Shown here: positions 30,806 through 34,135 of the stretch, one piece after another
Position numbering within the stretch: position 1 is the stretch's first letter
Layout of the letters: every line of letters begins with the position of its first letter
NCBI GenBank assembly: GCA_007571135.1
Contig: RKRY01000168.1
Coordinates: 1-34,135, forward strand
DNA from: Candidatus Nitrosopumilus sp.
GTDB lineage: Archaea > Thermoproteota > Nitrososphaeria > Nitrososphaerales > Nitrosopumilaceae
DNA: 34,135 nucleotides
Reading direction: 5' to 3'
Position numbers and translations under genes: made by a program
Notes under the pieces: generated by a model
The model's input: only the letters and a program-made list of their open reading frames with translations
Told to the model about the DNA's origin: nothing
Databases searched by the model: none

Positions 30806-33499
30806 TTACCAAAACTGCCACCATGGTTTTTGAACTGGCTTTGGGAAAATCGTGCAAACTCCATCAATTAGTTTGGTTCCTGGTCCGCAAAATCCAAATT
30901 TCTTTTCTGGTTCAGATTTCTTTGGCTCTAGCGTTTCCACTTTATGGTACTCTTCTGATGGTTCTTCTAATCCTACTGCCTGATAAATTGAATCATACTC
31001 TGAGTAATTATCATCAAACCAACCTTTGTAGCTTGCTTCATTGTTGTATCTGTCAACATAACTTTGTGGGTCCTTTGTTTCATCAACAAATGGTGCTAAT
31101 CCTAATTCTTCTTGTTCTTGGATAGGCTCCGGTTCTTGGATAGGCTCCGGTTCTTGGATAGGCTCCGGTTCTTGGATAGGCTCCGGTTCTTGGATAGGCT
31201 CCGGTTCTTGGATAGAGTTGTTTACAGTAATTGTAAGTGGCGTTGAGTCAAACAATCCATCTTTTTTTACTTCTACATCAAAGGTGTAGGTTTTTCCACC
31301 ATCAGTACTCGTTGGAGCCCATGTGAACATCCCGGTATTTGAAATAATTTTTGTGCCTGTAGGCGCGTTTCTTAGGCTAAAAACATGGTCTTTGATTGTG
31401 CTATCTGTTAATTTTACAGTAAATGACAATAATTTTCCTTCATCGACTGATAATTTCCCAACGGGGCTAATCTCCAATCCTGTAATTTTTGGAGTAGCGG
31501 TTGATTCATTTGACGGTTCGCTTGTTCCCGCTACATTAATTGCTGAAATTCTGTAGGTATATTTTGAATCCGTTACAAGGCCTGAATGAGTATAAATTCT
31601 TGATGTACTCTGGGTGTTCTCCACTATTGTACTAAAGGGACCATTGTTTTTTTTAGATTCAATTTTATAACCAACAACATCTGAATTTCCATCATCCACT
31701 GGTTCGCCCCATGTAAGCTTGATAGATTTTACAGATTCGGTTTCTGCGCGCAGTTTTATTGGAGGTGAAGACACCGTTACTTTAACTTCAGTTGAAGTTA
31801 TCGGCTCTTCTGATGTATCTGTAGAACTTTCTCTAGGTGTAGCAGATGCAGTGTTTGATTCTTCAGTTACGCCGAATCCAATGTTTGCTGCAACTGCATA
31901 AGTGTAAATATTGTCAATTGCCAAATTTGAAACAATAAATGTGGTAGTCTGTCCATTTGTATTTCCAACAATATCATAAACATCATCGCCTATTTTCCGT
32001 TTGATTTCATATCCGCTAATTGATTGACCAAATGTTTGAGATGGAGGTATCCATGACAACTTGATTTGACTGGGAGAAATTGCAGTCGCAGTAAGTGCAA
32101 CAGGTGTTGTAGTATGTTTTGGTTTTTCTGAAACCGATGGCGATGCGTCACTTGTCCCTTCAGAGTTTATTGAATAAACGCGATAATAGTATGTTTCAGT
32201 TTCCTCCAATCCATGATGAATAAACGAGGTGGTTTTGCTTGCAGAATTTTCTATTATTGTAGTGTAATCTTCAGAGCCAACTTTATACTCAATTTTATAT
32301 CCAGTAATTTCCGGAACAGATTCATCTAGTTTAGATTCATCCCAAGTAAGAATTATTGATGTTGGGGAGATCGCCATTGCTTTGAGATTTTCAGGTCTGC
32401 CAGGCGTCATCACAACAGGATCTGAACGAAGTGCCAAAGCCTGGATTCTATCATTTCCTGAATCTGCCACAAATAGCAGATCATTTGTCGAGTCTAATGA
32501 TATTCCTATTGGAGTATTAAACTGGCCATTCTTAGAACCAAAAGTTCCAAATTCTTCAACAAAACACACTCCGTCTGCAATCTCTTGTGCCCCACTTGGA
32601 CATAAAGTGTCATCTATGATCTCGAAGACTTGAATTCGATCATTGTCTGAATCTGCAATGTATAGTAAATCATTTGCATCATCAAATGCCAATCCAGCAG
32701 GATTGTCAAATTGTCCGTCCCCATCACCTGAAGAACCAAATTCCTTTACAAAACAAATACCATCAACTGATTTGACTGTGGCCCCTGGACATAAAGTTCC
32801 AGTTACAAGTTCAAACATAACAATTCTATCATTTCCAGAATCAGTAACAAAGAGAATATCATTGGAATTGTCAATTATCATGCTCGATGGATTTTTGAAT
32901 TTATCATTTCCATCAAAAGAATCAAAATCAAACTTAAAATTCCCTGCTGAGTTAAAAACTGAAATTGAATCTCTTTTTGAATTTGAGACAAAGATGTCTC
33001 TAGTTCTATCTTGAATTACTACTCCCTCTACACCTCCAAGGTATTCGTTATTTTTATTATCTGATGAACCAAATTTGAATCGAAATTTTCCGTTATCATT
33101 AAAAACTTGAATTCTTTCATTGTCTCCATCTACAACAAAATATTTTCCAAAAGCACCAAGAGCTATACTGGACGGATTGTCAAATTGTCCGTCCCCATCA
33201 TTGCTTGCTCCATCTGCATCATCATTGCAATTTTGAATTTGTGCTATGTCACAAAAAGATCCGTATTCAAAATCATGATCTCCATCATCGTCAAATACAT
33301 TTATTCTGTTGTTATCTTTGTCAACAACGTGAATTTCTTTTCCGTCACTACTAACTATGACATCAGTAGGATTGTCTAACTGATCGTCATTGGTTCCGAA
33401 TTCTCCAAACTTGAAATAAAACTCCATTTCTGCATAGGCCAATGGAATTGATACAATACACATTACAAAAAATATGCTCAAAATGATATTTCTCGCCAA
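30806..33499 (-). CDS. Large secreted protein: NHL propeller, three FN3 domains, Ig-like domain and PIQEPE repeat
   Basis: The 897-residue protein starts with a signal peptide (MARNIILSIFFVMCIVSIPLAYA). It then has about six NHL blades (for example DGQFDNPAGLAF...NDRIQVFE) and acidic D/N-rich insertions that could bind Ca2+. Three fibronectin type III domains begin near PENLKAMAISP, VALTATAISP and KLRAETESVKS. An Ig-like domain (ISPVGKLSVDEGK...GMFTWAP) follows. The PIQEPE tandem repeat comes next, then a C-terminal module (SYVDRYNNEASYKGWFDD, IYQAVGLEEP) and CGPGTKLIDGVC. That last module recurs in the next gene to the right. It is probably an extracellular or surface-attached adhesin-like protein. 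The start is TTG 33499, with an A/T-rich promoter at about 33513-33528. Confidence 0.82.
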   Translation of the reverse strand: MARNIILSIFFVMCIVSIPLAYAEMEFYFKFGEFGTNDDQLDNPTDVIVSSDGKEIHVVDKDNNRINVFDDDGDHDFEYGSFCDIAQIQNCNDDADGASNDGDGQFDNPSSIALGAFGKYFVVDGDNERIQVFNDNGKFRFKFGSSDNKNNEYLGGVEGVVIQDRTRDIFVSNSKRDSISVFNSAGNFKFDFDSFDGNDKFKNPSSMIIDNSNDILFVTDSGNDRIVMFELVTGTLCPGATVKSVDGICFVKEFGSSGDGDGQFDNPAGLAFDDANDLLYIADSDNDRIQVFEIIDDTLCPSGAQEIADGVCFVEEFGTFGSKNGQFNTPIGISLDSTNDLLFVADSGNDRIQALALRSDPVVMTPGRPENLKAMAISPTSIILTWDESKLDESVPEITGYKIEYKVGSEDYTTIIENSASKTTSFIHHGLEETETYYYRVYSINSEGTSDASPSVSEKPKHTTTPVALTATAISPSQIKLSWIPPSQTFGQSISGYEIKRKIGDDVYDIVGNTNGQTTTFIVSNLAIDNIYTYAVAANIGFGVTEESNTASATPRESSTDTSEEPITSTEVKVTVSSPPIKLRAETESVKSIKLTWGEPVDDGNSDVVGYKIESKKNNGPFSTIVENTQSTSRIYTHSGLVTDSKYTYRISAINVAGTSEPSNESTATPKITGLEISPVGKLSVDEGKLLSFTVKLTDSTIKDHVFSLRNAPTGTKIISNTGMFTWAPTSTDGGKTYTFDVEVKKDGLFDSTPLTITVNNSIQEPEPIQEPEPIQEPEPIQEPEPIQEPEPIQEQEELGLAPFVDETKDPQSYVDRYNNEASYKGWFDDNYSEYDSIYQAVGLEEPSEEYHKVETLEPKKSEPEKKFGFCGPGTKLIDGVCTIFPKPVQKPWWQFW
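31115..31216 (-). repeat. 18-bp tandem repeat encoding PIQEPE
   Basis: Five identical 18-bp units (TTCTTGGATAGGCTCCGG on the plus strand) and a partial sixth run in tandem. On the minus strand they encode the repeated peptide PIQEPE, an extended Pro/Glu linker between the Ig-like domain and the C-terminal module. The perfect DNA identity of the units implies recent expansion and likely length variation between strains. Confidence 0.9.
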
Positions 33500-33574
33500 T
33501 TCATATTACATTTGTGCATATTTTTATTAAATTAGAAAATAAATTTCATTACTCTTTTACTTAATTGACTTGAG

Positions 33575-34135
33575 CTAGTTTCTGAAGTGTTTTCTTACCT
33601 TAAATGCGATAAGGATGGGCGTTGCAATATACATTCCAAGATTCAATGCGACTACGGAAATTCCCAATCCCAATACCCCAATCTCTGAGCCATTTTCAGC
33701 TAGGGTCATGATTGAAAGGGTTGATACCATTGGAGTGATGAATGCCCTAACTGCTTCTTGGAACATTGGATTTTCTCTTTCCCAGTCGGCTATTGTTGGT
33801 GAGAACAAATAGTATAATTGATTAAACCCTGCCATGAATGCCACTCCATATGATGTGCTCATTACAGTGTTGTCCCTGACTTCTCTTAGGAACTGTATTT
33901 GGGGGGCAAGTTCTGTACCATATGCTGCAGTTGCAATAAGACAACCACCTCCATGTGAATCATCTACAATTACACATATACCATCAACCAAGTCTGTATT
34001 TGCTCCACATTCTCCAAATTCTGGTTCGTCTTTTAGTGGTTCTTCTAAGCCGACTGCCTGATAAATGGAATCGTAGTTAGGGTAGGACTTGTCAAACCAA
34101 TCTTTGTAGCCGGCCTCGTTGTTGTACCTGTCAAC
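33575..34135 (-). CDS. Surface protein with CFI-type (CLIATAAYG) box and C-terminal membrane helices (5' end outside the window)
   Basis: The frame is open to the window edge, so the N-terminus is missing; 186 residues are seen. It opens with VDRYNNEAGYKDWFDKSY and IYQAVGLEEPLKDEPEFG, then CGANTDLVDGIC. This is the same C-terminal module found in the large neighbour. It continues with GGGCLIATAAYGTELAPQIQFLREVRDN, the CFI-box typical of archaeal surface proteins. Hydrophobic segments follow (around YGVAFMAGFNQLYYLF, ITPMVSTLSIMTLA and GVLGLGISVVALNLGMYIATPILIAF) and a basic tail VRKHFRN. It is probably a membrane-anchored extracytoplasmic protein and paralogous in part to its neighbour. Confidence 0.75.
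   Translation of the reverse strand, partial: VDRYNNEAGYKDWFDKSYPNYDSIYQAVGLEEPLKDEPEFGECGANTDLVDGICVIVDDSHGGGCLIATAAYGTELAPQIQFLREVRDNTVMSTSYGVAFMAGFNQLYYLFSPTIADWERENPMFQEAVRAFITPMVSTLSIMTLAENGSEIGVLGLGISVVALNLGMYIATPILIAFKVRKHFRN

Follow-up and report, generated by a model that had tools for sequence, protein, structure and literature searches.

Nitrosopumilaceae are among the most abundant archaea of the sea, and to our knowledge little is understood of what keeps their surface proteins on the cell. Two neighboring genes in a Candidatus Nitrosopumilus genome bear on this question. The original prediction was that the proteins they encode share a C-terminal module, which was taken to suggest a common binding partner or surface-anchoring route. 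What is this module, and why is it found in both genes? The pair lies in a stretch of 34,135 nucleotides (the window) that makes up all of contig C175; the genome comprises 1.47 Mb in 175 contigs.

The larger gene is on the minus strand (33499..30806) and encodes 897 amino acids from a TTG start, beginning with an N-terminal signal sequence, MARNIILSIFFVMCIVSIPLAYA. An NHL β-propeller region (32429..33427; PF01436, E = 5.2e-19) is followed by three fibronectin type III (FN3) domains (31496..32410; PF00041, E = 1.2e-34 over three stretches), the borders of both being approximate. Both exceed the Pfam cut-offs (67.7 and 118.8 bits, respectively), which places the protein among NHL/FN3 proteins. 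The proposed PIQEPE stalk (31114..31215) is present as an exact 18-bp tandem repeat of 5.7 copies with 100% match. Beyond it lie a module copy identified by profile match (FVDETKDPQSYVDRYNNEASYKGWFDDNYSEYDSIYQAVGLEEP, 30959..31090; three helices, block pLDDT 82–92), a two-cysteine loop read from the sequence and predicted to form a β hairpin (CGPGTKLIDGVC, 30854..30889), and the sequence KPWWQFW (30809..30829), which is followed by the stop codon and has no membrane helix. All of these features are on the minus strand. CP.GT...VDGVC-type loops between the blades of the NHL propeller (window 32429–33427) resemble the cysteine loop of the tail, so this loop is not specific to the tail.

The second gene is also on the minus strand, and its 3′ end is 75 bases from the NHL/FN3 gene. 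Its 5′ end lies off the contig, leaving the C-terminal 186 codons of a CFI-box protein (34135..33575). In order along the minus strand, these encode a partial module copy found by the profile (VDRYNNEAGYKDWFDKSYPNYDSIYQAVGLEEP, 34037..34135), a two-cysteine loop seen in the sequence (CGANTDLVDGIC, 33974..34009), a CFI-box-CTERM domain (33725..33943; NF041770, 70.9 bits against a cut-off of 40), and a C-terminal hydrophobic helix (IGVLGLGISVVALNLGMYIATPILIAF) with the basic tail KVRKHFRN (33602..33682). The helix is assigned from the sequence, the hydropathy of its class and the long helices in the model of a relative. Thus, a module of about 44 residues and a C..G...L[IV]DG[VI]C-type loop do occur in both frames, as had been proposed, and the CFI-box protein does run on, through its CFI-box, into a hydrophobic helix.

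When the module profile was searched against all frames of the window, the pair matched at E = 1.3e-26 and 4.8e-18. Among the other real frames the best value was E = 3, and in 50 shuffles of all frames it was E = 0.34. The match is therefore not due to chance. The profile contains one window copy; independent support comes from the shuffles and from the copies in relatives. At the DNA level, the two window copies are 80% identical over 99 bp.

Since the window is a whole contig, the CFI-box protein was cut by the assembly, inside its module. Contig C151 ends in 54 bases that are the same as those opening the window's CFI-box frame, and its open frame (L056:1–831) encodes a signal sequence, Ig-like domains, a stalk and the start of a module. 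A single intact Nitrosopumilus protein (L104) aligns with both pieces, its N-terminal half with this frame (62%) and its C-terminal half with the window part (73%). By sequence, then, the rest of the CFI-box protein is probably on C151. The intact relative has three modules, so the copy number in the window's gene cannot be read from two contig ends. Contigs of several drafts stop inside the module (the window at 34135, L044, L045, L040, L072 and L063), as expected if near-identical copies break assembly, which suggests such copies as a candidate reason for the breaks in draft assemblies, the window included.

A 28-row module profile (A2) was used to establish the distribution of the module. 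Of 300 genomes searched in the order, 99 have it, and 98 of these belong to the Nitrosopumilaceae; in a phylum-wide sample it was confined to this family, and the profile search of that sample gave no match in other orders. Named genomes with the module include Nitrosopumilus, Nitrosarchaeum, Nitrosomaritimum and Marine Group I records. There is one match outside the family (G182, f8), and one record with the module is labeled Nitrososphaeraceae (L167); a misbinned contig may be the reason. The genome that contains the window has five matches in three proteins, namely the pair, with one copy split over C175 and C151, and a protein on contig C103 (L055:5080–6219) in which two tandem copies precede an IPxWIKNNAxWW repeat. 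This repeat has no match in Pfam or NCBIfam. Two tandem modules with IPxWIKNNAxWW repeats were also seen in L050, L057, L065, L066 and L068.

The module is therefore not limited to one gene pair: it occurs in 135 non-redundant proteins or fragments of several architectures. Nor do the proteins look cytoplasmic, as a hydrophobic N-terminus was found in 103 of the 112 for which the start was in hand, and most of the nine others are truncated or masked. Both proteins of the window are of an exported, surface type by their hydrophobic N-termini and architecture, in agreement with the original prediction; signal sequences and architecture likewise suggest a surface location for module proteins in general. 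The module is nearly always towards the C-terminus, the protein in L161, where it lies 595 residues from the end, being different. There are one to four copies per protein, and tandem copies are 49–50 residues apart. In the AlphaFold models each copy forms three short helices, predicted with high confidence, and the cysteine loop forms a β hairpin; confidence is low between them. In 28 diverse copies, P10, Y13, RY16–17, WF26–27 and I37 are invariant.

The module region has no match in Pfam, NCBIfam or PHROGs and no meaningful match among PDB sequences (best E = 0.69). A Foldseek search with the tail model gave no fold match in the PDB up to E = 10, and with the full protein of a relative the best matches were only to Ig- or cadherin-like structures, in the front half. 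The papers found on the CFI-box, on Nitrosopumilus NHL/FN3 surface proteins and on gene conversion in the genus do not describe the module.

In the first loci compared, module DNA of the NHL gene and of its neighbor, which encodes Ig-like domains and a CFI-box (the Ig gene), was 99.4% identical within a genome. When one and the same gene was compared between genomes, the identity was 85.6%; at third positions the values were 98.2% and 70.9%. In four loci the tract common to both genes is about 290–340 bp and covers the end of the stalk and the modules. The best NHL/Ig module identity averaged 0.979 in 17 genomes with linked genes and 0.788 in nine with unlinked genes (Mann-Whitney p = 3.6e-5, a value that is only indicative, as the genomes are related). 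Where the genes are linked, 28 of 29 NHL copies are nearest to the Ig gene of their own genome; where they are not, this is so for 2 of 13, and 10 of 13 are nearest to the NHL gene of another species. Seven of the nine unlinked genomes keep a pair of copies within the Ig gene at an identity of at least 0.95, so homogenization runs there too, but within linked DNA. Linkage is partly confounded with lineage, most linked genomes being of one genus; an unlinked genome of that genus (G111, 0.81) and the linked genomes G210 and Ww602 (0.93 and 0.97) point the same way. The comparison of linked with unlinked genomes amounts to a clean natural experiment on archaeal gene conversion, and it supports conversion between neighbors as the source of the near-identity. 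Among adjacent pairs, that of the window stands apart with its 80%; the only complete copy on its CFI side comes last in the array, and in relatives it is this last copy that diverges.

Conversion between neighbors partly explains why the module is shared. Since near-identity tracks linkage, it does not speak for a common partner. The two proteins may nevertheless have such a partner, or an anchoring route, in common, since all nine unlinked genomes examined keep the module in both genes. In its explicit form, this alternative has the module as a docking domain for one partner (an envelope protein, an S-layer component or a glycan) onto which both proteins are assembled. We give it somewhat less than an even chance. 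The residues invariant across diverse copies are in its favor, as is the joining of the module to many different front and end domains, which is often seen for binding domains; conversion accounts for the near-identity of the pair, and the Foldseek search of the PDB with the tail model offered no structural relative of known binding.

The modules could also be passive spacer repeats, spread and homogenized by recombination of repeated DNA and binding nothing specific. The variable copy number, the dependence of homogenization on linkage and the adjoining low-complexity stalk would all fit. However, the same positions are conserved across genera, and this holds between unlinked genes with only 63% third-position identity, which indicates that the protein sequence of the module is under selection. 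We regard passive spacing as unlikely.

The original prediction raised the question whether the module always precedes membrane helices, and the C-terminal ends do not bear this out. The 135 proteins and fragments comprise 54 with CFI-box and membrane helix, 40 ending in KPWW[QK]FW, 13 with the IPxWIKNNAxWW repeat, 4 with a membrane helix and a SHOCT-like end, 16 that are cut off and 8 others. A hydrophobic stretch of 19 residues is present in all 50 CFI tails tested and in none of the 40 KPWWxFW tails. The cysteine loop follows the last module in both classes (47 of 54 CFI tails and 36 of 40 KPWW tails). The SHOCT-like proteins (L051, L052, L058 and L061) match SHOCT at E = 0.024, below the cut-off.

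NHL and Ig fronts are each found with KPWW and with CFI ends. Ig proteins with KPWWQFW are common, and NHL proteins with the CFI-box and membrane helix occur in L041, L133, L148 and L150. In L041 the NHL and Ig genes match at 88% over a tract of 712 bp that takes in the CFI tail. A tree was made of 52 CFI tails, the L148 tail being too short for use. In it, the NHL tails of L041 and L150 group with the Ig tail of their own genome; the L133 NHL tail lies elsewhere, next to a masked L142 protein, perhaps an NHL protein as well, and three label changes are required by the starred branches. Two independent transfers of the CFI-box and membrane helix to an NHL protein are supported by these sequence comparisons. 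Two simpler ideas about the ends were rejected. KPWW[QK]FW is no general sorting signal, as it occurs at most once per genome and five times in total among 16 genomes, and the CFI-box and module do not form one unit, as there are CFI-box proteins without a module and 40 module proteins without a CFI-box. A plasmid search with the CFI-box tail returned only a distant CFI-box protein.

As none of the 40 KPWWxFW tails has a membrane helix, one might suppose that the NHL protein docks, through contacts between modules, on its membrane-anchored CFI-box neighbor. In all linked genomes that were compared, the adjacent genes keep one order and one orientation, which would fit such docking. Against it, unlinked pairs diverge, and either partner can be found alone: the sole module protein of one genome (G006, 98% complete) is of the CFI-box kind, another (G146, 99% complete) lacks a CFI-anchored module protein but has one that ends in KPWWQFW, and for G117 and G134 the matches listed include no NHL module protein. 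With only one kind in G006, in G146 and probably in G117 and G134, docking is unlikely to be the sole purpose of the module, and we consider the idea as a whole quite improbable.

The explanation that we prefer, and hold to be fairly probable, takes the module for a three-helix domain, restricted to this family and not described before, whose copies are homogenized by conversion. The domain would make up the membrane-proximal portion of an exchangeable C-terminal cassette for surface retention. In this cassette, a Pro/Glu stalk would be followed by between one and four modules in tandem, by the two-cysteine hairpin and by an interchangeable end (KPWWQFW, which is aromatic and helix-free, the CFI-box with membrane helix, or another). 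The protein would be exported through its signal sequence, the stalk would keep the outer domains (Ig/cadherin-like, or β-propeller with FN3) off the cell, and the cassette would retain the protein at the cell surface. The sequence comparisons support the view that repeated conversion over the stalk end and module array of adjacent genes maintains the near-identical copies within a species, and that tracts sometimes extend into the end and so give the NHL protein the anchor type of its neighbor. The conservation of KPWWQFW, and its replacement by a membrane anchor, lead us to infer that it does the job of the membrane helix for the proteins that carry it; the module, in turn, would bind a component of the envelope. 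Docking on a common partner is compatible with this retention cassette and would be its molecular basis. A bolder proposal, that the module array, cysteine loop and KPWWQFW together constitute a new helix-free retention on the Nitrosopumilaceae envelope, equivalent in function to the CFI-box anchor with which it is exchanged by conversion, is tentative and to our minds rather doubtful. By this recognizable, unnamed cassette, a few proteins in each genome can be singled out as candidates for a single route of retention.

The front domains of the window pair (NHL, FN3 and Ig-like) are ordinary. NHL and FN3 domains were noted earlier in Thaumarchaeota genomes (PMC7848895), and there are measurements of PEFG-CTERM proteins in Nitrosopumilus (PMC6593220); these passages do not mention the module. 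The front half of the large protein resembles known NHL and FN3 surface proteins; the modules, cysteine loop and KPWWQFW are not in any library searched. The CFI-box protein is a member of CFI_box_CTERM (NF041770; 73 bits in the genome search), of which the module is not a part: the genome has five CFI-box matches, and only one of those read has the module. The NHL/FN3 protein of the window does not match this family, but its relatives in L041, L133, L148 and L150 have the CFI-box. Elsewhere in the same genome, a CFI-box protein on contig C139 (L186) has a long PE repeat and a CG...LIDG.C loop and lacks the module.

Proteins with PEP-CTERM or PEFG-CTERM ends of the archaeosortase type are similar in being exported and in having a conserved C-terminal tail. 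The window's CFI-box protein, like several relatives, does have the letters PEFG ahead of its cysteine loop, but no membrane helix follows them. Tail models for PEFG/PEP-CTERM did not match the pair, the ScyF whole-protein model alone giving a score, far below its cut-off. The characteristic motif beside a C-terminal helix and basic end is likewise lacking in the helix-free KPWWxFW tails (0 of 40). Concerted evolution by gene conversion is similar in its near-identity within species, divergence between species and dependence on linkage. The difference is that conversion here acts between two genes which, for most of their length, are not related to each other, and that an anchor is sometimes transferred along with the module.
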